Positions 37,470 through 64,000 of a stretch of DNA of 64,000 nt are shown piece by piece. The stretch is from Nocardioides sp. SYSU D00065 (lineage in GTDB: Bacteria; Actinomycetota; Actinomycetes; Propionibacteriales; Nocardioidaceae). Positions within the stretch are counted from its first letter, which is position 1. Each line of letters begins with the position of its first letter. The position numbers and the translations under genes are program-made. The notes beneath the pieces are model-generated. The model was not told where the DNA came from. It did not search any database and saw nothing but the letters and a program-made list of their open reading frames with translations. The stretch spans positions 992,001 through 1,056,000 of the forward strand of contig NZ_JAFMSX010000001.1 of the NCBI RefSeq assembly GCF_017916425.1, written 5' to 3'.

Positions 37470-38240
37470 TCAGTCCGTGCCGTGACGCCGCACGAAGTCG
37501 ACGATCTGCTCGGCCAGCTCGGGGCGGCACACGATGAGGTCGGGCAGGGAGGTGTCGTCCTCGTTGTAGACGAGGGGGGAGCCGTCGACACGGCTGCAGT
37601 GCAGTCCCGCCGCCCGGGCGACCACGACGGGTGCAGCGTTGTCCCACTGGTACTGGCCGCCGGCGTGGACGTAGGCGTCGGCCACGTCACGCACCACGCT
37701 CATCACCTTGACCCCCGCGCTGCCCATCGGCACCAGCTCGGCGTCGAGCTCGGCGGCCAGCGCCTCCACGAACGCCGGCGGTCGGCTGCGGGACACCGCG
37801 ATGCGCGGACGCGAAGAGGTGCGCGGCGGTACGACGCTGGGGCGCCCGGTGCTGAACGTCTCCCCTAGTGCCGGCTGGGCGACGGCGCCCGCGACGAGGT
37901 CGCCGTCCTCCCACAGCGCGACGTGGACGGCCCAGTCGTCGCGCGGCGGCTCGGAGAACTCCCGTGTGCCGTCGAGCGGGTCGATGATCCAGACCCGGCG
38001 GGCGGTGAGCCGCGACTTGTCGTCCGCGGCCTCCTCCGACAGCACCGCGTCCTCCGGCCGGTGGGCGGTGAGCACCCGGTCGAGCTCGGCCTGGGCGGCC
38101 GCGTCGCCGGCGTCCTTGAGCGCCTTGCCCTCGAGGCCCTCGGCCGCGGCACCGGCGCGTACGTCGAGCAGCACCGTCCCGGCTCGTTCGGCTGCCCAGG
38201 CGGCGAAGGCGTGGTCGTCGAGCGTGGTGGGGTCGATCAT
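37470..38240 (-). CDS. Inositol-monophosphatase-family phosphatase, probably CysQ (3'(2'),5'-bisphosphate nucleotidase)
   Basis: A 256-residue metal-dependent phosphatase. The metal-site motifs are LSEEAADD (acidic loop), IDPLDGTREF (the DPLDGT core) and QWDNAAPVVVARAAG. The EEAxD form and the REF ending of the core motif favour the CysQ branch over inositol monophosphatases. CysQ removes 3'-phosphoadenosine 5'-phosphate, the by-product of sulfotransfer. A PAP phosphatase next to a locus with four sulfotransferases would make sense, although no direct operon link exists. TAGGGT is seven bases upstream of the ATG. Confidence 0.88.
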   Translation of the reverse strand: MIDPTTLDDHAFAAWAAERAGTVLLDVRAGAAAEGLEGKALKDAGDAAAQAELDRVLTAHRPEDAVLSEEAADDKSRLTARRVWIIDPLDGTREFSEPPRDDWAVHVALWEDGDLVAGAVAQPALGETFSTGRPSVVPPRTSSRPRIAVSRSRPPAFVEALAAELDAELVPMGSAGVKVMSVVRDVADAYVHAGGQYQWDNAAPVVVARAAGLHCSRVDGSPLVYNEDDTSLPDLIVCRPELAEQIVDFVRRHGTD

Positions 38241-38247
38241 GGCGCCC

Positions 38248-38253
38248 ACCCTA
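38248..38253 (-). promoter_or_regulatory. Leaderless -10 of the CysQ-like gene
   Basis: TAGGGT on the minus strand is seven bases from the ATG at 38240. The hexamer overlaps the stop codon of the upstream LuxR-type gene. Confidence 0.55.
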
Positions 38254-39024
38254 GCCACGCTCGACGGCTCGCTCGGCGTCGGCGGGCGCGGCGCGCTGGC
38301 GAGGTACGACACCGGCACCCGTGCCCACCTGCTGGACCTGACGCAGGATGGCCACGGCCTCGAGCTGGGTCTTCGCCCCGAGCTTGGCGCGCAGGCTCTT
38401 GACGTGGCTGCGCACCGTCCCGTCGGTGATGCCCAGCAGCTGGGCGACCTCCGGTACCCGCCGCCCCGAGGCCAGCAGCTCGAGGACACGGCGCTGCTGC
38501 CCGCTGAGCGTCTCCACGCGTTGAACGAGTTGTTGACGCTTGTCAAGGGCCTCGATCCAGGCCGCTCGCAGTTCTTGTCGGCGTTCTTGCTCCATGAGCC
38601 GGTCCCCGGCGACGAGGCGGTCGACGACCTCGTGCAGCTGGCTGAGGGACGTGGTCATCATGACGATGTCGACCGCAGGGTCCGCGACCAGAGCCCCCCA
38701 CCCGGGGTCGCTCGGGAGCGACGTCACGACTGCGACGCGCACGTCTCCCAGGGCCAGGACGCGACCGATCTCCTCGACGGCCGCTGCCTGGCCGCCGCCG
38801 TCGATCACGACGAGGAGGTGGCGGACGCGCCCCTCGTCCTTGCTCGACGACAGCTCGTCGCGCAGGTTCTCCCACGCGTGGAACTGCACCCGCGCCCCCG
38901 TGGACTGCAGCGCCGCCACCACCGCCTGGGCCACCAGCCGGTGCGGCGACACCACCCAGACGACCGGCGCAGGACCGGTCGCCCGGGAGCGCTTCGCGCG
39001 CACGTCAACTGGTGGGGCCGCCAT
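38251..39024 (-). CDS. LuxR-family regulator with degenerate receiver domain
   Basis: A 257-residue DNA-binding protein. Residues about 20-145 have the outline of a response-regulator receiver, but the acidic pocket is altered (VVWVVSPHRL where a DD pair is expected) and the conserved Lys is replaced in the IVMMTTS strand. The C-terminal helix-turn-helix of the LuxR/NarL class is complete (LSGQQRRVLELLASGRRVPEVAQLLGITDGTVRSHVKSLRAKLGA). Phosphorylation-independent control is likely. GGGAGAGG precedes the ATG. It is divergent from the histidine kinase gene across a 395-base gap. Confidence 0.9.
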   Translation of the reverse strand: MAAPPVDVRAKRSRATGPAPVVWVVSPHRLVAQAVVAALQSTGARVQFHAWENLRDELSSSKDEGRVRHLLVVIDGGGQAAAVEEIGRVLALGDVRVAVVTSLPSDPGWGALVADPAVDIVMMTTSLSQLHEVVDRLVAGDRLMEQERRQELRAAWIEALDKRQQLVQRVETLSGQQRRVLELLASGRRVPEVAQLLGITDGTVRSHVKSLRAKLGAKTQLEAVAILRQVQQVGTGAGVVPRQRAAPADAERAVERG

Positions 39025-39419
39025 GACCTCTCCCTCCCTGCCGGACCTACGACAAACCCTGAGGGGTCGCCGCCGTCACGAAGGTGGCTCGTGCCGCACG
39101 TGCACCTATTTGGGGAAGGCGGCCGGCGCGAGGGAGGTCCGCCGACGGGGTACCGACCGTTGGTGGAGCCGGGCTCTTGTCGATGCCTCGCAGCGGGCTT
39201 CCGGTGCCCTAGTGGCGTTCTTGACCATTCCTCGTGGACCTCTCAAGGGGGCGGACCAGACCGGCCTTAACGCGGGCCGCGTCGCCGCACACAATCACCG
39301 CAGTCCCCCAGATGGGGGGCGATCGGCACCGGGGAACCCGTCCCGCAGTTGGGGTCAGGCGCGTGTCGAAGACCTCGGGGTCGTACGTCGCGGTCGTACA
39401 GCTGTTTGTGGGGAGAGAC
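39025..39419. other. Regulatory gap between divergent regulators
   Basis: This 395-base stretch has no credible gene. It contains two AT-rich, G-run elements: ACCTATTTGGGGA at 39104-39116 and the palindrome CCCCAGATGGGG at 39306-39317. Both resemble elements upstream of other genes in the exopolysaccharide region. The kinase gene start has GGGGAGAG before it. Confidence 0.6.
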
Positions 39420-40886
39420 ATGCACGAGCATTTCCAAGGGGTTCATCGCTGGATCGGCATCGGAGGCGTCGCCGCCTCCTGCTTCGCCTTCCTGGTCTAC
39501 GTCGGGTCGAGCGGCGGGCACGTGGGGAGCGTGGCGCCACCGGGCACGGCACTGCCACCACTCGCCGACGGGATCGTCGGCGGTGTGTTCGTCGCCGGTG
39601 CGATCTCCGCCGCCGTGGTGTCGTGGCGCCGGCACGCCGGCCCGAGGACCCGGTGGGTCCTGGCCGCGGGAGCGCTGGTCGCGGGCCAGGCCCTCGTCGT
39701 CACCCTGCTGGCGCTGCACAGCGCCCCGCCCCGTGACGTCGTCACCCTCACGCTCATGCTCCTCGGCGCAGTCGCGGGCCTGGGGTGCGTGGTGGGCTCG
39801 CTGCGCGGCCTGGCCGACGTCGGGCACGTGGTGGACAAGAGCTTCGCGATCGGCCTCGGCATGGGGCTGGTCGCGGCCGGTCACCTCCTGCTGCAGTTCC
39901 CGATCAGCCGCCCGCCGGCGGCGACGGTCGAGGTCCTGGTCGGCGTGCTGGTCGCCACCCACGTGGCGGTCGCCGCCCTGGTGCTCAGGCAGCGCTCGCT
40001 GGCCCCGAGCGTCGCGGCGCTGATCGTCGTCACCGTGCTCGTGGTCGACGGAGGCCTGCTGCTGAACGTCTTCGGCGTGACCGGCGGCGCCGCCGACGCC
40101 GCGGTGGCGCTGGCGAGGGCCGGTGTGGGCGCGGCCTGGCTCACCGTCGCCTGCGTCAGCCTCCGGCGCGCGATCGAGGAGGACCGACGACGCATCGACA
40201 GCTTCGAGCACGTCCTGGTCGACACGACGCGCGAGCAGCGCGAGCGCCTCCACGAGCTGCGCAGCACGGTGGCGGGGCTCGTACACGGGTCGGCGCTCAT
40301 GGACGAACCCGACCTGCCCGAGGACGTCCGCCGGCGGCTCTGGGAGTCGGTCCGCCGCGAGCTCGGACGCATGGAGCGACTGCTGTCCGGCAAGGACGAG
40401 CCGGCGACCGAGCTCGACCTCGACGAGGCGCTCACCATGATCCTCGACCTCCAGCGGCTCAAGGGCCGCCAGGTCGAGCTGCGCAGCACCGGCACCACCG
40501 TGCGTGCCCGCTTCGACGCGCTCGCGGAGGTCGTCAACATCCTCATGGACAACGCCGTCACCCACGGCCGGACCGATCGCAGCGTGGTGGAGGTCGTGCG
40601 CCGCGACGAGGACACCGTCGACATCACGGTGACCGACTTCGGCCGCGGGATCCCCGAGGAGCATCGATCGCAGATCTTCGCGTGGGGCAAGCGGGGCAGC
40701 CGCTCGCCCGGTGAGGGCATCGGCCTCCACGTCGCGCAGCGGCTGATGACCGAGGACGGCGGCTCGCTGCAGCTGGCCGAGCCCACCGGCACCGGCTCGT
40801 CGTTCGTGATCTCCCTGCCGGCGGTGCGCCGCTCGCAGGAGGACCTGGTGATGGGGGGCGACAGTGCCTGGCGCCGCTCGAGCTGA
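39420..40886 (+). CDS. Membrane histidine kinase
   Basis: A 488-residue sensor kinase. The first about 260 residues contain eight hydrophobic segments (for example VFVAGAISAAVVSW and LVGVLVATHVAVAALVL) without an obvious extracellular sensor domain. The phospho-acceptor helix contains His near residue 278 in ERLHELRSTVAGLVHG. The ATPase domain has the N box (NILMDNAVTHG), G1 (VTDFGRGIPEE) and G2 (GEGIGLHVAQRL). The start ATG 39420 has GGGGAGAG upstream. It overlaps the response regulator by 23 bases, so the two form a kinase-regulator pair. Confidence 0.93.
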   Translation: MHEHFQGVHRWIGIGGVAASCFAFLVYVGSSGGHVGSVAPPGTALPPLADGIVGGVFVAGAISAAVVSWRRHAGPRTRWVLAAGALVAGQALVVTLLALHSAPPRDVVTLTLMLLGAVAGLGCVVGSLRGLADVGHVVDKSFAIGLGMGLVAAGHLLLQFPISRPPAATVEVLVGVLVATHVAVAALVLRQRSLAPSVAALIVVTVLVVDGGLLLNVFGVTGGAADAAVALARAGVGAAWLTVACVSLRRAIEEDRRRIDSFEHVLVDTTREQRERLHELRSTVAGLVHGSALMDEPDLPEDVRRRLWESVRRELGRMERLLSGKDEPATELDLDEALTMILDLQRLKGRQVELRSTGTTVRARFDALAEVVNILMDNAVTHGRTDRSVVEVVRRDEDTVDITVTDFGRGIPEEHRSQIFAWGKRGSRSPGEGIGLHVAQRLMTEDGGSLQLAEPTGTGSSFVISLPAVRRSQEDLVMGGDSAWRRSS

Positions 40887-41547
40887 CCACCGCGTGCTGA
40901 TCATCGACGACCACGTGCTGTTCGCGGAGTCGCTCGAGCTCGCGCTGTCGGTCGAGGGCTACGACGTACGCCGCCTCGAGCTGCCCGAGGAGGGCGGCTC
41001 GATGGCCACCGTGCGGTCGCTGGCGCTGCGTGCCGGGCCGCGCACCGTGCTCCTCGACCTCGACCTCGGTCGGTTCGGCGACGGGGTCAACCTGGTCGCG
41101 CCGCTGGCGAAGGCCGGCATCAACGTGGTCGTGCTGACCGCGTCGGAGGAGCTCGGTCGCTGGGGCGGGTGCATGCGCCTGGGTGCGCGCCGCGTGCTGC
41201 CGAAGAGCGGTGCCCTGCAGTCGGCCCTGTCCACGGTCAGGCGCCTGAACCAGGGCCTGCCGGTGATGAACCGTGAGGAGCTGGAGCTGCTCCTCGACGC
41301 GTGGGCTCGCGAGCGACGGGCGCACGACGACCTGCGCCGCCGCCTCGACCTCCTGACCCCGCGTGAGCGGCAGGTGCTGGCGGCGCTGATCGAGGGCCGG
41401 ACGGTGCGCGCGATCGCGCAGGAGAGCGTGGTCTCGGAGGCGACCGTGCGGACCCAGGTCAAGTCGATACTCAACAAGCTCGAGGTGTCCTCCCAGCTCG
41501 CCGCGGTCGGGATGGCGAACCAGGTCGGATGGAGGCAGGGCGCATGA
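40864..41547 (+). CDS. LuxR/NarL-family response regulator
   Basis: A 227-residue two-domain regulator. The receiver has IIDDHVLF (acidic pair), LLDLDLG (phospho-accepting Asp), VLTAS (Thr) and LPKSG (Lys), so it is canonical. A helical linker leads to the LuxR helix-turn-helix (LTPRERQVLAALIEGRTVRAIAQESVVSEATVRTQVKSILNKLEV). The GTG start lies inside the kinase gene. It is the probable partner of the membrane kinase. Its position at the head of the exopolysaccharide genes suggests it regulates them. Confidence 0.93.
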   Translation: MPGAARADHRVLIIDDHVLFAESLELALSVEGYDVRRLELPEEGGSMATVRSLALRAGPRTVLLDLDLGRFGDGVNLVAPLAKAGINVVVLTASEELGRWGGCMRLGARRVLPKSGALQSALSTVRRLNQGLPVMNREELELLLDAWARERRAHDDLRRRLDLLTPRERQVLAALIEGRTVRAIAQESVVSEATVRTQVKSILNKLEVSSQLAAVGMANQVGWRQGA

Positions 41548-41557
41548 GGGCGACCGG

Positions 41558-43405
41558 ATGAGCGGCATCGGGGGCGTGCGTGCCTTCGGGGCGGGGGCAG
41601 GTGCTGAAGCCGGCGCCGGTCCGGGGGTGGCGACCGAGGGGCTGCACCGGATGGCCGGGCACCTGCACCACCGCGGGCCGGACCGGACCTCGGTGTGGGT
41701 GGGCTCCGACATCGGCCTCGTCCACACCGGGCTGTCGGCGTCGCACCACGCGCCTCCCGAGCGACCCGTGCACTCCGCCGACGGGCGATGGGTGCTCGTC
41801 CTGGACGGGGTGGTCCTCAACCGCGACAGCCTGCGCCACTACCTCGACCGACCGTCCGACTGCGACGACGACGAGGTGGTCGCGGCCGGTCTGGCCGTCG
41901 AGGGCATCAGCTTCGCCGAACGGCTGCTCGGGCAGTTCGCCTTCGTGGCGCACGACCTGCGGACCGGCACCACCCACCTGGTGCGTGACCGGCTCGGCGT
42001 CGTGCCCCTGCACTACCGCCAGGTCCCCGGTGGCGTCGCGTTCGCCTCCGAGGTGAAGGCGCTGCTGGACGTCGGCCCGGCCCCGCAGGTGGACCGCCGC
42101 AGCCTCGACGCCTACCTCGCCACCCGGTCGGTGCCCGCACCCGACACGCTGTTCGAGGGCGTGAAGAAGGTGCGACCCGCGCACCGGGTCACCGTCACCG
42201 CCGGCGGCCATGTCGAGGAGGTCCGCTACTGGGCTCCGCCCGAGTGCGACCCGGACGGCACGTGGAGCGCCGCGGACGCCATCGAGGCGGTCGGCGACGG
42301 CGTGCGGGCGGCGGTCGAGGCCGCGCTGCGCGCCGGTACGCCGGGCACCCGGGTCGGCGTACACCTGTCCGGCCTCGCCGGCAGCCTGGTCGCCGCCCAC
42401 GCCCAGCAGCAGCGCGGCGACGAGCCGCTGCACACGTTCTCCGTCGACCTCGGCGACCGCCACCGCGGCACGCAGTCCCGGGAGGCGCGCACCAGCGCCA
42501 TGTTGGGCACCCTGCACCACGAGGTCAGGCTCGACGCGGCTGGCCTCGACGCTCTCTGGGGCCGGCTCACCTGGGCCCGCGAAGCCCCCCTGTCGGACCC
42601 GGGCGACGTCGCGACCTTCGTGCTCGCCCGCGCCGCCCGTGAGCACGTCGACGTGCTGCTCACCGGAGAGGGCAGCGAGGCCCTGTTCGGGGGACACGGC
42701 AGCCACCTGCTGGCTCGGATCGTCGACCAGTCCACCCAGCGGACGACCGGGTTGCGCTCGCGCGTCGCGGGGACCGTCGAACGTCACCTGTGCGGGACGT
42801 TCACCCCCGCCGAGCGCGAGCGGCTGCTCGGATCGCCCCCGCCCGCCGAGCGGCGGTCGTCGCCGGCCCTCGGCGTGGACCCCGTCGACCGGATGCTGCG
42901 CGAGGACCTGCGGCACCGGCTGTCCGACGACGTCCTCGAGCGCGAGGACCGCATGGCCGCAGCCGCCTCCGTCGGGACGCGTCCGTGCCTGCTGGACCAC
43001 CGCCTGGTCGAGCTGGCCTCCAGGCTGCCGGCGTCGGTCAAGTGGCGCGGCGGCATCGACCACTGGGTGCTGCGTGAGGCCGCCCGGCCGTTCCTGCCCG
43101 ACGCGGTCCTGGACCGCGCCGGCGCGGAGCCCCGGGTTCCGCTCCGCTCCTGGTTCCGCGACGGGCTGCGGGACGTGGCGCGCGAGCGGCTGACGGCCGA
43201 GGGGTCGTGGATCGGCCAGACGTTCGACCCGCGCGCGGTCCACGACGTGCTCGACCGGCACGAGCTCGGAGGACGACAGGCCCTCCGGCTGTGGACCCTG
43301 TTGAGCCTCGAGATGTGGCACGACAGCTTCTTCGGTGCCCCGCCGCCCGTCCCGGGACCGCGGCGGGAGCACCGCCGCGTCGCCGTTCCGGGGCAGCGCG
43401 GCTGA
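41558..43405 (+). CDS. Asparagine-synthetase-like protein with both active sites degenerate
   Basis: A 615-residue protein with the AsnB layout: an N-terminal class II glutaminase domain (about 1-200) and an adenylating synthetase domain. The N-terminus is MSGIGG, where functional enzymes have MCGI, so the nucleophilic Cys2 is Ser. The ATP-pyrophosphatase loop, normally SGGxDS, reads SGLAGS, and GEGSDE reads GEGSEA. The flanking landmarks HHRGPDRT, RDRLGVVPLHYR and FASEVKALL are normal. It is probably a scaffold, sensor or altered amidotransferase in polymer assembly. It lies 10 bases after the response regulator and upstream of the priming transferase. Confidence 0.85.
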   Translation: MSGIGGVRAFGAGAGAEAGAGPGVATEGLHRMAGHLHHRGPDRTSVWVGSDIGLVHTGLSASHHAPPERPVHSADGRWVLVLDGVVLNRDSLRHYLDRPSDCDDDEVVAAGLAVEGISFAERLLGQFAFVAHDLRTGTTHLVRDRLGVVPLHYRQVPGGVAFASEVKALLDVGPAPQVDRRSLDAYLATRSVPAPDTLFEGVKKVRPAHRVTVTAGGHVEEVRYWAPPECDPDGTWSAADAIEAVGDGVRAAVEAALRAGTPGTRVGVHLSGLAGSLVAAHAQQQRGDEPLHTFSVDLGDRHRGTQSREARTSAMLGTLHHEVRLDAAGLDALWGRLTWAREAPLSDPGDVATFVLARAAREHVDVLLTGEGSEALFGGHGSHLLARIVDQSTQRTTGLRSRVAGTVERHLCGTFTPAERERLLGSPPPAERRSSPALGVDPVDRMLREDLRHRLSDDVLEREDRMAAAASVGTRPCLLDHRLVELASRLPASVKWRGGIDHWVLREAARPFLPDAVLDRAGAEPRVPLRSWFRDGLRDVARERLTAEGSWIGQTFDPRAVHDVLDRHELGGRQALRLWTLLSLEMWHDSFFGAPPPVPGPRREHRRVAVPGQRG

Positions 43406-43809: not shown

Positions 43810-45294
43810 ATGACGTACACGCCGATCAGGGCCGTCGCGTCCGAGGCCGAGCTGACGACGACACCGGTCCCCCGCCCGCGGGGCGCGGAGCCCGCCGAGC
43901 CGTCGACGACGGCCCTGTCGCCGGTCGCTCCCCCGCCGGCCGTGGTCGAGTTCGCGACCCGGGTCTCGTCCGGGCGACGCACGACTCGATCGGCCATCGG
44001 CGTCGACACCCTGCTCGCGCTCGCCCTCGCAGGCGCCGCGGCGGCCATGGGAGTCGTCCCGGCGCCGGTGGCGGCTCTCTCCGCCGCGTCCTGGCCGCTG
44101 CTGCTGCTGGCGGCCGGGCACTACCGGTACCCAGGTCTCGGCGGGACTGCCGGCGCCCGGTTGGGCATCGTCCTGGGCACCGGCGTGCGTGCGGCGGTGC
44201 TGGCACTGGCGGTGTCGCCCCTGTTCTTCACGGTCGACCTGACCGCGCTGGCCGCGCTGGTCGCCATCATGAGCCTCGCCAGCTCCGTCCCCCCGGTCGT
44301 CGGCGCGCGACGGCGCCGCCTCCGACTCGTGCTGGCCGGGCGCCCGCGCGACGTCCGGGAGGCGATGGCGGAGCTGCGCTCCTCCGGCAGCCCGGAGATC
44401 GTCGCCGCATGCTTGACCCGCCCCTCGAAGGTGCCTCTCGGCGACCTGCCGACGTACGTCGGCTTCGCGGACTCCTCCACCGTGGCGCACCGCCACCAGG
44501 CCGACGCGCTGGTGGTGCTCCCCGGCGCGCGCCTGACCCACCACGAGGTGCGCCGCCTGCACTGGGCACTGGCCGGCGTCGGCGCCGAGCTGTACCTTGG
44601 CACGGGCCTGCTGGACGTCGAGCCGCAGCGCACGCGAGTCGTGTCCGCCGCCGGCATCGACATCCTGCACGTCACCCCGCCCGTCCTGGACGGGCCCCGG
44701 CGTCTCCTCAAGGACGTCGTCGAGCGCTCGCTCGCCCTGGTCGCCTGGCTCCTCGCGCTGCCGCTGCTGGCGGCGCTGTGCCTGGCCATCCGGCTGGAGA
44801 CGCCCGGGCCCGCCCTGTTCCGCCAGGAGCGCATCGGCCGCAACGGCGTGGCCTTCACGATGCTCAAGCTGCGCTCGATGTGCGTCGAGGCCGAGCACGT
44901 GCGATCCGCCCTCACCGCCGTGAACGAGAAGGACGGCGTGCTGTTCAAGATCCAGCAGGATCCCCGCATCACGCCGCTCGGACGGATGCTGCGCCGCTAC
45001 TCCCTCGACGAGCTGCCCCAGCTGTGGAACGTGGTGCGTGGCGACATGTCGCTGGTCGGACCCCGGCCGGCGCTGCCGAGCGAGGTCGCCCAGTACGACA
45101 TCGACCCGCGGCGGCGCCTGGTCGTCAAGCCCGGCGTGACCGGCCTGTGGCAGGTCTCCGGTCGCTCGGACCTGACCTGGGCGGAGTCGGTCCGGCTGGA
45201 CCTCAAGTACGTCGACAACTGGTCGCTGGCCCTGGACGTGAAGATCCTGGTCCGCACCGTCCGGGCCGTCCTCGGCCACCGCGGCGCGTACTGA
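43810..45294 (+). CDS. Polyprenyl-phosphate sugar phosphotransferase (exopolysaccharide priming enzyme)
   Basis: A 494-residue membrane enzyme that transfers a sugar-1-phosphate to undecaprenyl phosphate, the first step of repeat-unit assembly. Four hydrophobic segments lie in residues about 60-160, and a Rossmann-like region (LVLAGRPRDVREAM) follows. The C-terminal catalytic part starts after a further membrane helix (SLALVAWLLALPLLAALCLAI) and contains the family motifs MLKLRSM, LDELPQLWNV and GDMSLVGPRPA, then VKPGVTGLWQVSGRSDLTW. The specific sugar is not predictable. A gap of 256 bases and an HNH gene separate it from the rest of the cluster. Confidence 0.93.
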   Translation: MTYTPIRAVASEAELTTTPVPRPRGAEPAEPSTTALSPVAPPPAVVEFATRVSSGRRTTRSAIGVDTLLALALAGAAAAMGVVPAPVAALSAASWPLLLLAAGHYRYPGLGGTAGARLGIVLGTGVRAAVLALAVSPLFFTVDLTALAALVAIMSLASSVPPVVGARRRRLRLVLAGRPRDVREAMAELRSSGSPEIVAACLTRPSKVPLGDLPTYVGFADSSTVAHRHQADALVVLPGARLTHHEVRRLHWALAGVGAELYLGTGLLDVEPQRTRVVSAAGIDILHVTPPVLDGPRRLLKDVVERSLALVAWLLALPLLAALCLAIRLETPGPALFRQERIGRNGVAFTMLKLRSMCVEAEHVRSALTAVNEKDGVLFKIQQDPRITPLGRMLRRYSLDELPQLWNVVRGDMSLVGPRPALPSEVAQYDIDPRRRLVVKPGVTGLWQVSGRSDLTWAESVRLDLKYVDNWSLALDVKILVRTVRAVLGHRGAY

Positions 45295-45537
45295 GCGCGC
45301 GTCGTCGGAGGGCGGTGCCGGCGTCCGCCCTGCTCGGCTCAAGCGGGCGGGCCATCTCGGAGGGAGTCGCCGAGGACGACTGACACGGCGCTGGAGGCGG
45401 TGGCGGAGAAGGACGCGGCGGGCCTGGGGCCGGCGGGCTGGGGCCGAGGACGGGATCCCGCCACACGGGCGCCACACTTGCTTCCGCGATCTCCACCGGA
45501 TGCGCCCCGAGCCATGGCCACCGTCAGTCGAATACGA

Positions 45538-45543
45538 TATAAT
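45538..45543 (+). promoter_or_regulatory. Leaderless consensus -10 (TATAAT) of the HNH gene
   Basis: TATAAT ends seven bases before the ATG at 45551, in the most AT-rich spot of the surrounding DNA. TGGCCA at 45515-45520 is a possible -35 at 17-base spacing. Confidence 0.7.
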
Positions 45544-45550
45544 CGAACAC

Positions 45551-46954
45551 ATGATCGAGACGCTGGCAGGACCGCGAGGCGCAGGGGTCGAGGACCTCTC
45601 CGCCACCGCGCTGCTGGCTGCGATCAAGGAGCGGAAGGCCACAGAGCACCGCGCCGCCGCCGACCAACTCGACCTCGCCGCACGATGGGCCGACCTGCAC
45701 CCACCGGAGTCCATCCACTCCGCCGCCTCGTTCACCGTGCCCGGATGTGATCACGAGGAGCCCATCGCCGGCGAGGGTGCGCCGTTGGTGGCGGAGTTCT
45801 GCGTCGCCGAGCTCGGCGCCGTCCTCGGGATCTCGACGACGTCGGCGAAGCGGCTCATCGGGCACGCGCTCGAGCTGCGGCACCGGCTGCCGCGGCTGTG
45901 GGCGCAGGTCCAGTCAGGTGCCGTGCCGGCGTGGCGGGCGCGGTCGGTCGCCGAGGCCACGATCCACGCCACACCCGCGCTCACCCCCGAGGCAGCGGGC
46001 TGGGTCGACTCCCAGGTCGCCGCGGTCGCCGGGCGGGTGGGGCCGGCGCAGCTGGACAGGCTGGTCGCTGAGACGATCAAGCGGTTCGACCTGGCCGCGC
46101 CCGATCCCGCTGGGGATCCGGAGGACGGCTACCTGTCCGTGGACCCGCGCCACGCCACGATCGACACGCAGGACGTGCACTACGCCGGGACCATGCGCCT
46201 CGAGGCCGAGCTCGATCTCGCCGACGCCCTCGACCTCGACCGGGCGCTCGCGCATGGCGCCGCGACGCTGGCCGCGCTCGGCTCCGCTGAAACGCTGGAC
46301 GCCCGGCGCGCCAAAGCGCTCGGCGACCTGGCCCGCACCCAGACCGCCCTCGACCTCCACACCCAAGGCAATGCCGAGGCGCGGGCAGCTGACGGGCTCC
46401 CCGTCGCGCGGGAGGTCGTCCTCCACGCCCACTTCGACGCCACGGCTTGCGGCGACCAGACGGTGTTCGGGCCCACGGGTCGCATGGAGGAAGGCCAGCG
46501 GCTCCTGCTGCTCGACCAGGTCAAGGGGTGGTGCGCCGACACGCGCACCAAGGTCACCATCAAGCCGGTCATCGACCTCACCGCCGAGCTCACCTCGCCG
46601 GGCTACGACATCCCCGACCGCATCCGCGAGCAGGTCGTCCTCCGCGACCGGACGTGCGTCTTCCCCTGGTGCAGCCGGCCCGCCCGTGGCTGCGACATCG
46701 ACCACGTCATCCCCTACGACCCGGACGCGCACGCAGGCGGCCGGCCGCAGCCCGGACCGACCACCACGTCGAATCTCGCCGCGTTGTGTCGGCGCCACCA
46801 CCGATTGAAGACTCACTCCGCCTGGCGGTACAGCATCACCGGACCAGATGCGTTGGAGTGGACCAGCCCCCACGGCCACCGGTTCAGACGAGATCCGTCC
46901 GGCACCACCGCACTCGACGACCCACCACCGGTCCCGCTGCCACGCCGACAATGA
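45551..46954 (+). CDS. HNH endonuclease, DUF222 (13E12-repeat) family
   Basis: A 467-residue protein. The long N-terminal helical region is DUF222 (CDHEEPIAGEGAPLVAEFCVAELGAVLGIST, ARSVAEATIHATPALTPEAA). The C-terminal HNH nuclease motif is complete: RTCVFPWCSRPARGCDIDHVIPYD, then NLAALCRRHHRLKTH. Such genes are multicopy in many actinobacteria and behave like selfish nuclease genes; their cellular role is unproven. The ATG at 45551 is set by the leaderless consensus promoter rather than the longer frame. It stands alone between the priming transferase and a repeat array, interrupting the polysaccharide cluster. No flanking inverted repeats were seen. Confidence 0.9.
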   Translation: MIETLAGPRGAGVEDLSATALLAAIKERKATEHRAAADQLDLAARWADLHPPESIHSAASFTVPGCDHEEPIAGEGAPLVAEFCVAELGAVLGISTTSAKRLIGHALELRHRLPRLWAQVQSGAVPAWRARSVAEATIHATPALTPEAAGWVDSQVAAVAGRVGPAQLDRLVAETIKRFDLAAPDPAGDPEDGYLSVDPRHATIDTQDVHYAGTMRLEAELDLADALDLDRALAHGAATLAALGSAETLDARRAKALGDLARTQTALDLHTQGNAEARAADGLPVAREVVLHAHFDATACGDQTVFGPTGRMEEGQRLLLLDQVKGWCADTRTKVTIKPVIDLTAELTSPGYDIPDRIREQVVLRDRTCVFPWCSRPARGCDIDHVIPYDPDAHAGGRPQPGPTTTSNLAALCRRHHRLKTHSAWRYSITGPDALEWTSPHGHRFRRDPSGTTALDDPPPVPLPRRQ

Positions 46955-47906: not shown

Positions 47907-48740
47907 CTACCAGCCCCAGGACTCCCGCAGCCTGAACCCGAAGGTGCTCTCGAGAGCCTCGACCTCCGAGGCCAGTGCCCGGCGCACGAACATCACGTCG
48001 CTGGCCCCGGGCCGCACCGCGGCGCGGTCGATCGGGCGGTAGAGGGCGCGATGCACCAGCGGCGAGCGCTTGACCGCCCCGACCAGCCGGGCGCCGTCGT
48101 GCTCGCGCACCCAGTCGGCGCCGCGTCGCACGGTCGCGGCCACCCGCACCGACCGCGCCCTCGCCGCCGGGAGCTTGGCCTCGAGGTCCTTGGGCGCGAG
48201 CGGGAGCCGGGCGATCCCGAGCGTGTCCGTGACGCCGTCGAGGAACGCCTGCGGGTCGGCCTCGAGGTCGTCGAAGAGGGCGACGTGGACGTTGTCTCGG
48301 GAGAAGTGCTGCAGGAAGCGGTCCAGCCCGGTCGCGTAGCGCCCGTGCTCCAGCAGCTCGGGACAGCTGCGCAGCGCCTCGGCGAAGGTGTCGGGCCCGA
48401 TGCCGTGCTTGCGCATGTAGAGGTACGACGACCAGGCGCGGTCCACCGGGTCGCGCAGCGAGACCATGATCTTGATGTCGCCGAGCGCGTCGTGGATGCG
48501 CTGCGCCGCCTCGGGGTGGAACAGGTAGTCCTGACAGACCTCACCGACGACCTTCTCCTCCCGCGCGTCCTTGAACTGCGCGGCGTACCAGTCCAGGCCG
48601 CGGTCGTGGTAGCGGTCGAAGAAGTAGAGGTCCTTCGAGGGCGTGAGGTAGCAGTCCGGGTGCTTGATCAGCGTCTCGTGCAGCCACGACGACCCGGCCT
48701 TGTCCGGGCCGACGTAGAGGAAGTTGGGCAGACGGCTCAT
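47907..48740 (-). CDS. Sulfotransferase (PAPS-dependent, Sulfotransfer_1-like)
   Basis: A 277-residue sulfotransferase-fold protein. The 5'-phosphosulfate-binding loop is YVGPDKAGSSWLHETL near the N-terminus. The 3'-phosphate-binding segment is MVSLRDPVDRAWSSYLYM. KDLYFFDRY is typical of the heparan-sulfate-like bacterial branch. The C-terminal helix VRRALASEVEALESTFGFRL is the segment repeated in decayed form downstream. It probably sulfates a sugar of the polymer built here. The ATG overlaps the glycosyltransferase stop (ATGA), and it is last in its operon. Confidence 0.9.
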   Translation of the reverse strand: MSRLPNFLYVGPDKAGSSWLHETLIKHPDCYLTPSKDLYFFDRYHDRGLDWYAAQFKDAREEKVVGEVCQDYLFHPEAAQRIHDALGDIKIMVSLRDPVDRAWSSYLYMRKHGIGPDTFAEALRSCPELLEHGRYATGLDRFLQHFSRDNVHVALFDDLEADPQAFLDGVTDTLGIARLPLAPKDLEAKLPAARARSVRVAATVRRGADWVREHDGARLVGAVKRSPLVHRALYRPIDRAAVRPGASDVMFVRRALASEVEALESTFGFRLRESWGW

Positions 48741-53837: not shown

Positions 53838-54800
53838 ATGAAGGTCCTCTATATCGTAGGCGTGGGCAGGTCCGGTAGCACCCTGCTCGAACGGACCCTC
53901 GGCACGCTGCCGGGATGGCACAACGCCGGCGAGCTCAACGCCGTCTTCTCCCGGGTCGCCCGGCAGGACCAGCGCTGCGGGTGCGGAACGCCGTTCTCCT
54001 CCTGCGACTTCTGGCAGGCCGTCGGACAGCAGGCGTTCGGCGGCTGGTCCGAGGTGACCGCCGAGATGAGCCGGCTGCAGCCGCGGGTGGTGCGACAGCG
54101 CTACGTCCCACGGCTGGTGTCGGGCGTGATGAGTGACGACGCGCGCCGCGAGCTCGGCGTGTACCTCGAGTGCCACGACCGGCTGTACCGCGCGATCGCC
54201 GACGTCGCCGGCGCCGAGGTGGTCGTCGACGCGAGCAAGTCGACCGCCCAGCTGTTCGCCCTGCGCCGGATCGCTTCGCTCGACCTGCGCGTTCTCAACC
54301 TGGTGCGCGACTCGCGGGGCGTCGCCAACTCGTGGAACAAGCCCGGCCTGGTCAAGCCGCAGTCACGCGACGGCGAGTCGATGGGCACCTACTCGCCCCA
54401 GCGCCTCGCGGTGCTCTGGTCGGCGCTGCAGGCCGAGTCGGCGATGCTGTGCGCGGCTGCGCCGTACGCCACGCGGATGCGCTACGAGGACCTGGTCAGC
54501 GACCCGCGGCCCACCCTGGAGCGGGCCCTGGAGGAGGTGGGCCTTCCCGCCGCGCCGGGATCGCTGGCCCACGTGGGCGACCACAGCGTGGAGCTGCCGG
54601 CCAGCCACGGGGTCGCCGGCAGCCGCACCCGCTTCACCACCGGCCACGTCGAGCTGCGGCTCGACGACGCCTGGCGCTCGAGCCTTCCATCCGCCTCCAG
54701 GCGGGTCGTCACGGCCGTCACCTGGCCGCAGCTGGTCAGCTACGGCTACGCCGGCCGGCACGCGGCGGACGAGCGGACGGGGACGACCGCATGGCGCTGA
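53838..54800 (+). CDS. Sulfotransferase-family protein with CxC cysteine motif, paralogue of the 49687 gene
   Basis: A 320-residue sulfotransferase-fold protein, closely parallel to the one at 49687-50685: YIVGVGRSGSTLLERTLG, then RCGCGTPFSSCDFWQAVGQQAFGGWSE, VVDASKS, LNLVRDSRGVANSW and a C-terminal SRTRFTTGHVELRLDDAW. The Cys cluster and spacing are the same, so the two are paralogues that may act on different positions. The ATG is preceded by GGGGAGGAACGGGG. It is first of the plus-strand operon, and its stop overlaps the polymerase start by 10 bases. Confidence 0.88.
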   Translation: MKVLYIVGVGRSGSTLLERTLGTLPGWHNAGELNAVFSRVARQDQRCGCGTPFSSCDFWQAVGQQAFGGWSEVTAEMSRLQPRVVRQRYVPRLVSGVMSDDARRELGVYLECHDRLYRAIADVAGAEVVVDASKSTAQLFALRRIASLDLRVLNLVRDSRGVANSWNKPGLVKPQSRDGESMGTYSPQRLAVLWSALQAESAMLCAAAPYATRMRYEDLVSDPRPTLERALEEVGLPAAPGSLAHVGDHSVELPASHGVAGSRTRFTTGHVELRLDDAWRSSLPSASRRVVTAVTWPQLVSYGYAGRHAADERTGTTAWR

Positions 54801-58253: not shown

Positions 58254-59044
58254 ACCGGACCGGCGGCCTGCCGCTGGTCGCCGACTACACCCGGTTCGTC
58301 CGCAGGCACCGCGCACGGATCGCTGCAGCCGTGGCGGCCGGCGTGCTGGGTGGCCTCGCGCTGTCGGCGACCCAGTCCACCACGTACTCCGCCACCGCGT
58401 CGGTGGCGCTCACGCCCGTCCCGCTCTACGTCATGGCGGCGACCTCCGAGCTGGCTCCGCCCCCGGTGAGCATCGACACCGACGCGCAGCTGCTGCGCAG
58501 TCCCGCGGTGCTGGCCGCGGTCGCCGAGGAGCTGGACGTCGACGGCGCCCGGAGCGAGGAGCACATGTCGGTGACGGCCTCGCCCAACACGAGCATCCTC
58601 CACGTCACCGTCACCGCCACCGACGCCGCCGCGGCCGCCCGCGCGGCCGACGCCGCGGCACTCGCGCTGCTCGAGGTGCGCCGCACCGCGCTCGGCGCCA
58701 TCACCAACGAGCAGATCCGCCAGCTGCGGTTCCACGTCGTCGCGACCGAGGCGGCGCTGGCCCGGCAGCAGGCTCGACGCCTCGTCGTCCCCGCCCGCGA
58801 CGACCTCTTCGCCGAGCTCCTCGAGCTGCGCACGCGGCTGGACGAGCTCGAGAGCGCCAGGCGCACGCCTGCGGAGGTCATCGAGCCGGCCCCTGATCGC
58901 GGGCAGGCGGTCTACGCCAACAGCGAGGTCCCGGTGACCTCGGGAGCCGCTCTCGGACTGGTCATCGGCTGCCTGGTCGGCGCCGCACGAGATCGATCGA
59001 GGGACGAGCACTCCGTCCCCAAGGAGGACGAACATGCCGCATGA
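58241..59044 (+). CDS. Wzz-type chain-length / polymer co-regulator, kinase-less
   Basis: A 267-residue membrane protein. One membrane helix near residues 28-46 and a second near 238-253 enclose a periplasmic Wzz-type domain with a coiled-coil part (HVVATEAALARQQARR, ELLELRTRLDELES). This is the classic Wzz outline without a cytoplasmic kinase. It regulates polymer length together with Wzy. A second Wzz-like protein follows directly and carries the kinase-like extension, so the two may form a hetero-complex. Confidence 0.85.
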   Translation: MGELNRTGGLPLVADYTRFVRRHRARIAAAVAAGVLGGLALSATQSTTYSATASVALTPVPLYVMAATSELAPPPVSIDTDAQLLRSPAVLAAVAEELDVDGARSEEHMSVTASPNTSILHVTVTATDAAAAARAADAAALALLEVRRTALGAITNEQIRQLRFHVVATEAALARQQARRLVVPARDDLFAELLELRTRLDELESARRTPAEVIEPAPDRGQAVYANSEVPVTSGAALGLVIGCLVGAARDRSRDEHSVPKEDEHAA

Positions 59045-60623
59045 CACCCACGCCGCCGCACCGGGCGGGAAGCTCGCCCGGGCCGCTCGTCACCACATCG
59101 TCCTCGTCGCCGTCCTCACGGCCCTGGGCCTGGGCGCCGGGTGGTACGTCGCGGGCGCGCAGCCTGCGACGTACACCAGCACCACACGCGTGCTGATCAA
59201 CCCATCGGTCGGCAACCCGTTCTCTGCGACCCCCGCGTCGGTACGCCAGGACGAGGTCACCAGCCTGGAGACCGAGGCGCAGATGGTCCGGTCCGCCGAG
59301 GTGCTCGCCGCGGTCGTCGAGCGCGGCGACGGCCTCACGGTCGAGGGCCTCGCCTCGCGGTTGCAGGTGAGCGTGCCGCCCAGCACCCAGATCCTCGAGA
59401 TCACCTACTCAGCCGGCGACGCGAGCTTCGCCCGGCAGGTGGCCGGAGCCGTCGCGACGGCCTACCTCGACAACCGCGACGCCCGCTTCCAGCGCATCCA
59501 GGACGAGCGCGTCGGACGGCTCGAGACCCAGACGGTGCGCACCGTCGAGGACCTGCGCGCAGCGACGTCCGCGGCGCAGAGGGGCACCCCGGCCCAGCGC
59601 GCCTTCAACAACGAGCTCGCCGACGCGCTGCGCAACGAGCTGGTCAACCTGCGCGCCCAGCGCACCTCGCTGGAGAACCTGACCTCGCCTCCGGGCACCG
59701 TCATCGCCCCGGCGTCCGTGCCGGCCGGACCGCCGCTCCTGACCACGCTCGTGTGGCCGGTGGGAGGCGCCCTGGCGGGACTCGCTCTGGGCCTGCTGCT
59801 CGCCGTCGTGCTCGAGCGCACGCGTGGCGTGGTGCGGTCCGCGAGGGAGGCCCAGGACGTCGGTGTCCCGGTCGTCGCGGCCGTCCCCGCGGCCGGGTGG
59901 CGTGACCGCCGGCGCCCGGACAGCAGGCGGGAGGCCGTCGACGCAGCCGTACGTCGCCTCCGCACCACGATCCTCGACCTCGACGACCGCCCCGGCGTCA
60001 TCACCGTCACCGGTACGACGTCCGACACGAGCGACGCCGGCGCCGCGGAGGCCCTCGCCGGGTCGTTCACCAGGGCGGGGCACCGGGTGGTGCTGGTGCG
60101 GCCCGGCCACGCGCCCGGGGCCGAGGACCTCGCCGTTGACGAGCGCGGCCTGGCCCAGCTGCTGCTGCACGAGCGGCTCGACGTCCACGACGTGCTGCGC
60201 CCGAGCGTCGAGCCGCTGCTGAGCGTGCTCGACGGCGGCGCCTGGACCGCGGAGACCCGGGAGCTGCTGACCGCGGACCGGGTGCGGGAGGTGCTGCAAC
60301 CCCTCGTGGACGAGGGCAACATCGTCGTGATCGAGGCGCCCGGCCGCGGCACCGCGGACGGCGAGGCCCACCTCGCGGCGGCCGATCTCGGGGTGGTGGT
60401 GGTCACCAGGTCGCGGACCCGGCGCCGGGCGCTCGAGGAGGTCGTGGGTGAGGCGCGCGCCTCGCTGTCCTCGGTCGTCGCGCTCGTCGTCGGCCCCCGG
60501 GACCTCGCGCAGCGGTCCCGACCCAGCCGCCACGCGGACTCGACACCGACCGCGACGGGTCGCGACGCCCGACGCAACGCCCGACGCGACACCTCGCACG
60601 GCGCGCCCCGGGCGCGAGCGTGA
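59034..60623 (+). CDS. Wzz-domain protein with degenerate BY-kinase-like domain
   Basis: A 529-residue protein. Residues about 20-260 form a Wzz-type periplasmic domain between two membrane helices (IVLVAVLTALGLGAGWYV and LVWPVGGALAGLALGLLLAVVL). The rest resembles a bacterial tyrosine autokinase, but the P-loop is missing: VTGTTSDTSDAGAAEAL lacks the GKS/T motif, and the Walker A' strand reads VVLVRPG in place of a DxDxR motif. NIVVIEAPG occupies the Walker B position without Asp. It is probably a non-catalytic regulator of polymer length. The basic C-terminal tail has no Tyr cluster. Confidence 0.85.
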   Translation: MPHDTHAAAPGGKLARAARHHIVLVAVLTALGLGAGWYVAGAQPATYTSTTRVLINPSVGNPFSATPASVRQDEVTSLETEAQMVRSAEVLAAVVERGDGLTVEGLASRLQVSVPPSTQILEITYSAGDASFARQVAGAVATAYLDNRDARFQRIQDERVGRLETQTVRTVEDLRAATSAAQRGTPAQRAFNNELADALRNELVNLRAQRTSLENLTSPPGTVIAPASVPAGPPLLTTLVWPVGGALAGLALGLLLAVVLERTRGVVRSAREAQDVGVPVVAAVPAAGWRDRRRPDSRREAVDAAVRRLRTTILDLDDRPGVITVTGTTSDTSDAGAAEALAGSFTRAGHRVVLVRPGHAPGAEDLAVDERGLAQLLLHERLDVHDVLRPSVEPLLSVLDGGAWTAETRELLTADRVREVLQPLVDEGNIVVIEAPGRGTADGEAHLAAADLGVVVVTRSRTRRRALEEVVGEARASLSSVVALVVGPRDLAQRSRPSRHADSTPTATGRDARRNARRDTSHGAPRARA

Positions 60624-62194
60624 CCCCCTTGGCCCCGGTGTCCCCCGCTGGTCGGGCCTCGCCGCACAGCGGCCAGCTGGAGCGGCTGGCCAGGCGGGGC
60701 ACCGCCAGCATGATCGGCGCCGGCTTCAGCGGGGTCTTCGGGGTCGTGCTGGTCGTCATCGTCACCAACGGCTTCTCCCCGGCGGTGGCCGGCACCCTGT
60801 TCGCTGCGACGGCAGCCTTCCTGATCCTGGAGTCGGTCGCGCTGCTGGGCACCGACACCGGCCTCGTGCGGTGGCTGCCCACCCAGCTCGGCTCCGACCG
60901 TGCCGGCGATCTCCGCCGCACGGTCGTGGTCGCGGTGGCCCCCGTGCTGCTGTTCTCCGTGGTCGTCGCGGCAGGTCTGCACACCGTCGCGTCCGGTGTC
61001 GCGCCGTACCTCGTCGGGGACGCGGAGGCCGACACGATGGCGGGGATGCTCCGCGCCCTCGCGCTGGTCCTCCCCGTCGCGGCCCTGCACGACCTGGTGC
61101 TGGCCGCCACCCGCGGAGCCGGCTCGATGCGCCCGACCGTGATCGTCGAGAACATCGGCCGCCTCGGGCTGCAGTCCCTGCTGGTCGTCCTCACCTACCT
61201 GGCCGGCGGCGGCACGGTGATGCTGGCCCTGGCCTGGGCGGTTCCCTACGTCCCGGGCCTGGCCGTCTCGACGGTCTGGCTCTCTCGCCTGTTGCGTCGT
61301 GGGGCGGGCGGGCGGGCGCCGGCCACGCCCTGGGCGGTGCTGGCACGCGAGTTCTGGTCCTACACCGCGGCCCGCGGCATCGCTCGCGTCACCCAGACCG
61401 CCCTCAAGCGCTCCGACATCGTGATGGTCGCCGCGCTGGCCTCGCCGGCCGAGGCCGCCCTCTACACCGCAGCCAGCCGGTTCATCGTGCTCGGGCAGCT
61501 GTTCGTGCAGTCGGTGCAGCAGGCGCTCTCGCCGCAGATGAGCTCGCTGTTCGCGCGCGGCGAGCAGCGCGCTGCCAACGCGGTGTTCCAGGCCGCCACC
61601 CGGTGGAGCATGATCGCGGCCTGGCCGCTCTACCTCGTCACAGCCGGCTTCGCGCCGGCGCTCATGGCCCTCTTCGGCGAGGGCTACGCGTCGGCCTCCG
61701 ACGTGGTGGTGATCCTCTCCCTGACGATGCTCCTGGCGACCGCCTGCGGCCCCGTCGACTCGGTGCTGCTCATGGCCGGGCGCAGCTGGCTGAGCCTCCG
61801 CAACAGCACCGTCGCGCTCGCCGTCAACGTCGGCCTCAACCTCGTCCTCATCCCGCCTCTGGGCATCCGGGGCGCGGCGATCGCCTGGGCGGTCGCGATC
61901 GTGGTGCGCAACCTCCTGCCGCTGTTCCAGGTCCGCCGCCACCTCGACATGTGGCCCGGAACGGCGCCGTCGCTGCGCGTCGGCCTCGCCGCGCTCGGGT
62001 GCTTCGGCCTCGTGGACGCGGTGCTGTGGCTCGCCGACCTGCCCCTGGTCGTCGGCATCTCGCTCACCGCCGCGGCCGCGATCGGCTACGGCGCCGTGCT
62101 GTGGACGTGGCGCGGGCCCCTCGAGCTCGCCGCGTTCCGCACCGCGCTCAGGCCACGGCACGCACCGGCGCGCCCCGGCCCCACCGCCGCCTGA
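60620..62194 (+). CDS. Wzx-type polysaccharide flippase (MOP superfamily)
   Basis: A 524-residue membrane protein with about fourteen hydrophobic segments, the MOP-flippase count. The N-terminal MIGAGFSGVFGVVLVVIVTNGFSPAVAGTLF and the later ALKRSDIVMVAALASPAEAALYTAASRFIVLG are typical of Wzx proteins. NLVLIPPLGIRGAAIAW is the usual helix 9-10 motif. It moves lipid-linked repeat units across the membrane for Wzy. The GTG start overlaps the upstream stop (GTGA); it is the last gene of the plus-strand operon. Confidence 0.92.
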   Translation: MTPLAPVSPAGRASPHSGQLERLARRGTASMIGAGFSGVFGVVLVVIVTNGFSPAVAGTLFAATAAFLILESVALLGTDTGLVRWLPTQLGSDRAGDLRRTVVVAVAPVLLFSVVVAAGLHTVASGVAPYLVGDAEADTMAGMLRALALVLPVAALHDLVLAATRGAGSMRPTVIVENIGRLGLQSLLVVLTYLAGGGTVMLALAWAVPYVPGLAVSTVWLSRLLRRGAGGRAPATPWAVLAREFWSYTAARGIARVTQTALKRSDIVMVAALASPAEAALYTAASRFIVLGQLFVQSVQQALSPQMSSLFARGEQRAANAVFQAATRWSMIAAWPLYLVTAGFAPALMALFGEGYASASDVVVILSLTMLLATACGPVDSVLLMAGRSWLSLRNSTVALAVNVGLNLVLIPPLGIRGAAIAWAVAIVVRNLLPLFQVRRHLDMWPGTAPSLRVGLAALGCFGLVDAVLWLADLPLVVGISLTAAAAIGYGAVLWTWRGPLELAAFRTALRPRHAPARPGPTAA

Positions 62195-62332: not shown

Positions 62333-64000
62333 ATGACCGGACCACGCACCAAGCTCGTGACGCTGCTGGCTGCGACCGCCACCGCGGCGGGCGCGCTGAG
62401 CACCACCACCGTCTCCCCGGCGAGCGCGGCCGCCACGGACGTGGTGATCAACGAGATGATGTACCACGCCGTGTCCGACCTCGACGGCGACGACTACCTC
62501 GAGCTGACGAACATCGGCACCACCCCCGTCGACCTGTCCGGGTGGACCTTCAGCGGCATCACGCTCACCCTCCCCGCCGGCACCACGATCGCCCCCGGTG
62601 GCTTCCTGGTCGTCGCCAAGGACGCCGCGCAGTTCCAGGCCAGCTACGGGTTCGCCCCCGCCGCCGTCTACGGCGGCAACCTGTCCAACTCCGGAGAGAC
62701 CGTCTCGCTCAAGGACGCCGCGGGCACGACCATCGACACCGTCGCCTACGGCGAGGCCGACCCCTGGCCCGTGAAGGCCGACGGCACCGGTCCCTCCCTC
62801 GAGCTCGTCGACGCCCGCCTCGACAACAACGACTTCCTCAACTGGGCCGCCGCGACCAATGCCGCCGGCCGGACCCCCGGAGCGGCGAACTCGGTGCGTC
62901 GCAGCGGGCTGGGCCCGCGGATCACCGCCGTCACGCCGAGCACCACGACCCCCGCCGCCGGCGAGGCCGTCACCATCAGCGCCACGATCACCGGCCACGC
63001 CAGCGCGGTCGTGCGATACCGCACCGACTTCGCCGCCGAGCAGACCGTGCCGATGACCGCGACCGGCGGCGACACGTGGACCGCGACCATCCCCGGCGCC
63101 GCGGCCGGCCACCTCATCCGCTACCGGGTGCAGGCCACCAACGCGACCGCCACGACGACCTCCCCCCGCAGCGACGACACCGTCACCTATCGGGGCGTCG
63201 TGGTGCCGAGCGGCATCAGCAGCCCGATCCCGCAGTGGGAGTGGTTCATCGCCCCCTCGGACTACACCAACCTGGTCAACAACCCGACCGTCGACATCGT
63301 CGTCCAGGGGGCGATCGCCTACGAGGGCCGCGTCTACGACAACGTCTCGATGGAGATCAAGGGGCACGCCTCGCAGCGCGACCCCAAGGTCAGCTGGAAG
63401 TTCAAGACCCCTGCGGGCTACGACTTCGACATGCCCGGGCTCCTCGTGGAGCCGGTCGACGAGCTCGACATGCAGGCCGACTGGAGCGACCGCTCCCACG
63501 GCCGGGCGATCCTGTCCTGGGACGCCTACGCCCGGGCCGGCTTCGAGGACCACACGATGTTCCCGGTCCGCACCCAGCGCAACGGCGCCTTCCAAGGCCT
63601 GTACACGCTGCAGGAGACCTACGACGGGACCTGGCGCGAGCGCGAGGGGTACGACGACGACCAGTTCTACGAGGCTGAGACGAGCGCCTTCTCCACCCGG
63701 CCGATCTCCGTGCAGTTCTCCAAGAAGTCGCCCGACGAGACCGACTTCGCGCCCATCGCGGCCTTCGTCAGCGGCGTCCGGCTGACCGGGACCGCCCAGC
63801 GCAACCACCTGCTCGCCAACGCCGACCTGCCCCAGATGCTCAACTACGCGGCGGTGACCGCCATCGTCGAGCACCACGACTCCGCGTCGAAGAACTTCTA
63901 CCTCGCGCAGGAGCCGACCACGGGCCGGTGGCGCATCCTGCCGTGGGACCTCGACCACACGCTCGGCAACGGGTGCTGCAACGTCGACAGCGCCTTCGTG
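62333..64000 (+). CDS. Secreted lamin-tail / CotH-family protein (partial, C-terminus outside window)
   Basis: The frame is open to the window edge (556 codons). The signal peptide ends near ASAAA (residue 33). A lamin-tail domain follows (VVINEMMYHAVSDLDGDDYLELTNIGTTPVDLSGWTF). An Ig-like sandwich spans about 195-285. The CotH atypical kinase domain starts near residue 310 (SMEIKGHASQ; LYTLQETYDG) and reaches its metal motif PWDLDHTLG near 536. CotH proteins phosphorylate extracellular proteins in spore-formers; here an extracellular matrix role is inferred. The upstream gap holds a possible -10 TACGTT at 62250-62255 and an AT-rich element at 62211-62232. Confidence 0.88.
   Translation, partial: MTGPRTKLVTLLAATATAAGALSTTTVSPASAAATDVVINEMMYHAVSDLDGDDYLELTNIGTTPVDLSGWTFSGITLTLPAGTTIAPGGFLVVAKDAAQFQASYGFAPAAVYGGNLSNSGETVSLKDAAGTTIDTVAYGEADPWPVKADGTGPSLELVDARLDNNDFLNWAAATNAAGRTPGAANSVRRSGLGPRITAVTPSTTTPAAGEAVTISATITGHASAVVRYRTDFAAEQTVPMTATGGDTWTATIPGAAAGHLIRYRVQATNATATTTSPRSDDTVTYRGVVVPSGISSPIPQWEWFIAPSDYTNLVNNPTVDIVVQGAIAYEGRVYDNVSMEIKGHASQRDPKVSWKFKTPAGYDFDMPGLLVEPVDELDMQADWSDRSHGRAILSWDAYARAGFEDHTMFPVRTQRNGAFQGLYTLQETYDGTWREREGYDDDQFYEAETSAFSTRPISVQFSKKSPDETDFAPIAAFVSGVRLTGTAQRNHLLANADLPQMLNYAAVTAIVEHHDSASKNFYLAQEPTTGRWRILPWDLDHTLGNGCCNVDSAFV

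Follow-up and report, generated by a model that had tools for sequence, protein, structure and literature searches.

An AsnB-like protein with two degenerate active sites, kept under purifying selection in an exopolysaccharide locus of Nocardioides

Introduction

Beta-lactam synthetase and carbapenam synthetase (PDB 1JGT and 1Q15), which share the fold of the asparagine synthetase AsnB, have no cysteine nucleophile but retain a working ATP site. Pseudoenzymes have been well studied in kinases and, to our knowledge, little is known of them in amidotransferases. WbpS-type enzymes amidate uronic acids for O-antigen synthesis (PMC3684757). ASNSD1 is described only as a predicted enzyme in a review (PMC9140057), and a short search of the open literature found no description of a doubly dead AsnB lineage or of AsnB pseudoenzymes.

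Here we analysed a window of 64,000 nucleotides from Nocardioides sp. SYSU D00065, which encodes an AsnB-like protein (Table 1). As with the WbpS-type and XrtA-system (TIGR03108) amidotransferases, its gene is found in a polysaccharide locus and adjoins a priming transferase, but the catalytic residues of the window protein are largely gone. It resembles the beta-lactam and carbapenam synthetases in having the AsnB fold and no working glutaminase nucleophile, and differs from them in that its ATP site is degenerate. Among solved structures, that of the hydroxyamidotransferase TsnB9 (PDB 7YLZ) is closest in both sequence (E 1e-26) and fold (Z 33.1); TsnB9 is named as an active enzyme, and the window protein is only about 23% identical to it.

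Table 1 Features of the AsnB-like locus in the window.
Feature	Position	Strand	Remarks
Inositol monophosphatase family gene	37470..38546	-	PF00459; conserved upstream flank; synteny
Sensor histidine kinase (HK)	39234..40886	+	PF02518 64.2 bits; synteny
LuxR-type response regulator (RR)	40864..41547	+	PF00072, PF00196; stop in ATGA just before the degenerate gene
Minicistron MRATG*	41544..41561	+	ATGA-ATGA chain; from sequence, function inferred
AsnB-family pseudo-amidotransferase	41558..43405	+	615 aa; both active sites degenerate
Class II glutaminase-like domain	residues about 2-215		of the 41558..43405 product
Synthetase-like domain	residues about 235-595		of the 41558..43405 product
Codon 2, AGC (Ser)	41561..41563	+	replaces the Cys1 nucleophile codon; sequence and alignment
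Most conserved part of the degenerate clade	41885..42307	+	residues 110-250; dN/dS 0.06; candidate interaction surface
Degenerate ATP pyrophosphatase loop SGLAGS	42368..42385	+	residues 271-276; SGGxDS expected
Priming polyprenyl glycosylphosphotransferase (GT, exopolysaccharide)	43810..45294	+	PF02397 215.9 bits; TIGR03025 326.5 (cutoff 295.6)
Wzz-like chain-length determinant	59034..60623	+	PF02706; same polysaccharide region
Wzx-like polysaccharide flippase	60620..62194	+	PF01943; same polysaccharide region

Results

Both catalytic centres are degenerate in a conserved fold

The product of the AsnB-like gene starts with MSGIGGVRAF and contains VHLSGLAGSLVAA. It matched the Pfam profiles PF00733 (Asn_synthase, 198.8 bits for a cutoff of 21) and PF13537 (GATase_7, 70.3 bits), and these two domain profiles, together with the AsnB fold of the predicted model, place it in the Asn_synthase / class II GATase superfamily. 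The score for the asparagine synthetase equivalog TIGR01536 was below cutoff (252.2 versus 267.1 bits), as was that for the XrtA/PEP-CTERM amidotransferase TIGR03108 (240.1 versus 816.9 bits), and a link to XrtA systems was not upheld.

That prediction had noted a serine in place of the glutaminase nucleophile (MSGIGG) and SGLAGS in place of SGGxDS. Both replacements were confirmed by the sequence and by alignment with homologues, in which they fall in catalytic columns: Ser2 is aligned exactly with Cys1, and SGLAGS with SGGLDS. Its statement that both centres are disabled was correct and understated the loss. Among 13 tabulated residues, which we take to follow E. coli AsnB numbering (Cys1, Arg49, Asn74, Glu76, Asp98, five ATP-loop positions, Glu348, Asp351 and Lys449), the window protein keeps four. 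Unlike E. coli AsnB (PDB 1CT9), with which it shares the two domains, it is devoid of Cys1, Arg49 (Gly), Asn74 (Asp), Glu76 (Val), the ATP loop and the catalytic Lys449 (Gly). With Ser, Gly, Asp and Val at these positions the pocket keeps only Asp98 and does not have what a class II glutaminase requires; nor does the synthetase site have what an AsnB-type enzyme requires, the loop carrying a deletion besides the SGLAGS change, Asp351 being Glu and Lys449 being Gly, with Glu348 kept.

The structure prediction called for at the outset gave an AlphaFold2 model with a pLDDT of 81.4 and a pTM of 0.84. Its best fold matches were TsnB9, E. coli AsnB (Z 30.5 over 471 residues) and human ASNS (Z 29.6), followed by beta-lactam synthetase (28.4) and carbapenam synthetase (26.5). 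The AsnB fold is kept in this prediction, from which function cannot be read.

The genome of the window strain encodes no other full-length PF00733 protein, the second match being a fragment of 54 positions (26.5 bits), and a role as subunit or partner of an active AsnB paralogue was therefore rejected. A GatB gene is present, so that a tRNA-dependent route to asparagine is possible without AsnB, and a need for AsnB to supply asparagine was rejected as well.

The start codon and its overlap with the response regulator gene

The reading frame is open for 56 codons upstream of the ATG and holds no ATG, GTG or TTG, so that an N-terminus MCGI, considered in the original prediction, cannot be regained from an upstream start. 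Since the same kinds of loss are also found in independently sequenced orthologues, sequencing error was rejected, and an artefact of either kind has practically no probability.

The five-codon minicistron has a start that overlaps the RR stop and a stop that overlaps the start of the AsnB-like gene, a chain which suggests translational coupling of this gene with RR. In eight loci, the ATG of the AsnB-like gene itself forms an ATGA with the RR stop, and in two others (L072/L073) a GTG start overlaps it as GTGA. Such an overlap imposes an A at the first position of codon 2, so that Cys (TGY) is impossible, and the single change TGC to AGC both removes the nucleophile and makes ATGA. Judged from these junctions, the start/stop overlap is a possible cause of the cysteine loss; it leaves unexplained the members with Gly, whose starts overlap otherwise or not at all. 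In L071 and its sister loci L065 and L066 the gene starts within the overlap with the RR stop, and the protein has two additional residues before the former Cys1 column; the L071 gene (start at about 7998-8030) has the N-terminus MTGAGVCGIR.

Degenerate orthologues form a graded series within Nocardioides

A search of 216 Nocardioides genomes at E <= 1e-60 detected the gene in 26, 21 of them in the clade considered here and five with more distant, intact homologues. Twenty orthologues, the window's included, are degenerate and keep between 4 and 9 of the 13 catalytic residues. The 15 intact homologues, namely that of N. baculatus (L075) and 14 more distant ones, come from Nocardioides, Actinotalea and other Actinomycetes, and each has the full set of 13. 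No orthologue was found outside Nocardioides in 342 genomes of the family (1 of 26 genera positive), and the homologues found in 395 genomes of the class were all intact. The view that a doubly degenerate protein is unusual is borne out in the wider family, where no such case occurred among the 15 intact or more distant homologues checked, but not at this locus, at which it is the rule (20/21).

None of the 20 degenerate orthologues has Cys1, Asn74 or a complete synthetase site; 19 are without Lys449, 15 without the loop Asp and 13 without Glu348. At the Cys1 position they have Ser, Gly or Ala, and at that of Asn74 invariably Asp; the altered loop and lysine positions vary from one orthologue to another. 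As the dead sites differ in this way, a shared new chemistry, one of the options of the original prediction, is unlikely. A changed chemistry on the model of the beta-lactam and carbapenam synthetases, which work without the cysteine, would fit the common fold (Z 28 and 26), and L057 (N. astragali), L058/059 and L064 retain much of the synthetase site, so that a stage that uses ammonia or acts as a ligase is possible in these members. However, the loop Asp, Glu348 or Lys449 is replaced in the window protein and most orthologues, differently in each lineage, and a conserved new site would be expected, yet the degenerate clade has just four newly fixed residues; we regard this explanation as improbable. 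Slightly less probable still is a metabolite sensor whose dead pocket would bind a ligand such as glutamine or a nucleotide and report to the two-component system: the gene adjoins a sensor pair and the fixed Asp at position 74 (20/20) indicates a pocket position still under constraint, but Arg49, Glu76 and the ATP loop are variable or missing in several members, among them the window protein.

In a mixture-model tree built with the catalytic columns left out, the 20 degenerate members form one clade with an SH-aLRT of 92, which is suggestive and not decisive, and intact L075 is its sister (support 100). Parsimony on a FastTree protein tree gave one loss each for Cys1, Asn74 and Lys449, four for the loop Asp and six for Glu348. 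The simplest reading of these counts is that the glutaminase centre died first and once, and the synthetase centre piecemeal and repeatedly. The trees of neighbouring genes put L075 within the clade, at differing positions; if they reflect the true history, either losses took place several times or the gene in L075 was replaced.

Conserved gene order and repeated loss of the whole gene

The 21 loci of the clade all share the order HK, RR, AsnB-like gene (degenerate or intact) and GT, and each except L075 has the inositol monophosphatase family gene upstream. Across the clade, identity is 83-91% for RR and 52-62% for the AsnB-like gene. Nine further genomes with an RR of at least 82% identity have HK and RR without the AsnB-like gene, and in eight of them GT follows directly; no gene remnants were found in those RR-GT gaps that could be checked. 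The gene-less loci are nested within the clade in at least two places (G144 and the seven-genome G160-G030 group, G045 being uncertain), which implies at least two losses of the whole gene, and hence that it is dispensable. Genome G005 has an intact homologue not next to RR but 6.8 kb downstream of it, which hints at the route by which the gene may have entered the locus. The HK-RR-GT locus is present twice, with equal scores, in genome G017 (L086 and L087, on G017:C1 and G017:C8); this genome is listed with 9% contamination, and the duplicate may be an assembly matter.

Polysaccharide surroundings and ancestral function

At the intact L075 locus, GT is directly followed by genes for a member of the UDP-glucose/GDP-mannose dehydrogenase family and for an RmlC-type epimerase. 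No relative was found within about 8 kb of the degenerate genes, nor in the window. Every genome has at least one UDP-glucose/GDP-mannose dehydrogenase, the window's genome having only one, about 625 kb away. The intact genes L075, L080 and L037 adjoin sugar-nucleotide enzymes or glycosyltransferases. From the one intact locus L075, it is plausible that the ancestor was a sugar-acid amidotransferase which lost its substrate.

Two sulfotransferase-family genes (47907-48740, minus strand, and 53838-54800, plus strand), both shared by some relatives, are also found in the polysaccharide region of the window and hint at a sulfated polymer. A DUF222-domain gene (45500-46954) directly follows the priming transferase gene, outside the conserved synteny, and at the edge of the region (62333-64000) a CotH kinase domain is joined to a Lamin Tail Domain.

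Purifying selection and the conserved region of residues 110-250

Selection was measured as dN/dS, with a codon model and by pairwise NG86. The codon model gave 0.100 for 19 degenerate genes and 0.048 for six intact homologues, compared with 0.080 for GT, 0.090 for HK, 0.034 for RR and 0.018 for the inositol monophosphatase gene. In three close groups made up of degenerate genes only, it was 0.065-0.085 versus 0.056-0.075 for GT from the same genomes. The pairwise values were 0.11-0.18 for the most recent informative degenerate pairs and 0.16 for an intact pair. Long open reading frames are kept in all 20 degenerate genes; the mean difference at four-fold sites is 0.48, near saturation and comparable to that in RR, HK and GT. 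These sequence comparisons indicate that the gene codes for a protein under selection and is not a drifting pseudogene, with a constraint partly relaxed, about twofold, relative to the intact homologues. The retention of a doubly disabled protein in a regulated polymer locus, as originally proposed, agrees with a dN/dS of about 0.1. By sequence and predicted structure, the protein qualifies as a putative pseudoenzyme, its catalytic residues being lost while the frame and the predicted fold are under purifying selection.

The mean pairwise identity over all sites is 0.61 in the degenerate set and 0.59 in the intact set. At catalytic sites it is 0.53 versus 1.0, whereas it reaches 0.81 versus 0.54 at residues 110-175 and 0.73 versus 0.51 at residues 175-230. 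The lowest dN/dS of the degenerate gene lies in residues 110-250, where synonymous variation is normal. As four-fold sites vary evenly along the gene, the constraint bears on the protein and not on the DNA; DNA-level constraint or an overlapping gene under this region was rejected. Thirty-five residues are fixed in the degenerate clade and rare in outgroups; they are already present in intact L075, and 24 of them are located within 110-250 (binomial p 1e-8). Only D83, V249, L285 and H453 are newly fixed and exclusive to degenerate members. If L075 is the sister, the special region predates the loss of catalysis.

The gene could also be a slowly dying relic, whose substrate was lost when the polymer changed and whose sites then decayed, the remaining constraint merely avoiding misfolding or disturbance of the operon. 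The graded decay from 9/13 to 4/13 residues, the N-terminal variation, the two or more whole-gene losses without remnants and the dehydrogenase seen only at the intact locus all agree with this, and, as the gene is dispensable, the explanation stays alive, although we hold it to be rather unlikely. Against it, the close degenerate groups are as constrained as the neighbouring GT, all 20 frames stay open despite near-saturated four-fold sites, and invariant clade-specific polar residues are not readily predicted by avoidance of misfolding.

Discussion

On balance, we favour the reading that the gene encodes a former amidotransferase of the exopolysaccharide locus, now probably a pseudoenzyme kept for a non-catalytic and dispensable role. 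The ancestor would have been a glutamine-dependent, ATP-using amidotransferase, perhaps active on sugar acids, whose gene came to lie between RR and the priming glycosyltransferase gene in the ancestor of the Nocardioides clade. Some 35 clade-specific residues would have arisen while the catalytic set of this ancestral protein was still complete, most of them in the linker between the domains and in the distal half of the glutaminase domain. Next would have come the loss of the glutaminase nucleophile and of Asn74, in the simplest case only once, followed by a decay of the synthetase site, repeated and different in each lineage, to a protein presumably without any activity. Selection would now keep the fold and residues 110-250, and since these are what is preserved, the protein most likely acts by binding. 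It may be a modulator made together with RR and acting on RR, with its HK partner, or on the priming transferase.

The role originally suggested, structural or regulatory, is a reasonable interpretation of these data, but at least two lineages have lost the gene and kept HK and RR. This argues against our favoured reading too, as RR loci nested in the clade function without the gene, and so does the partly relaxed constraint, with a dN/dS twice that of the intact homologues. More tentatively, this lineage of AsnB pseudoenzymes might link a two-component system to exopolysaccharide priming through a surface that arose before the enzymatic function was lost, a proposal that we consider possible and rather less likely than the non-catalytic role itself.

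The genus offers, at one syntenic spot, a natural series that runs from the intact enzyme through proteins that lack the nucleophile but retain much of the synthetase site, and others that are fully dead, to complete loss of the gene. This series makes the change from an enzyme to a non-catalytic protein directly testable, and also whether a binding surface arose before catalysis was lost, as the residue pattern suggests.
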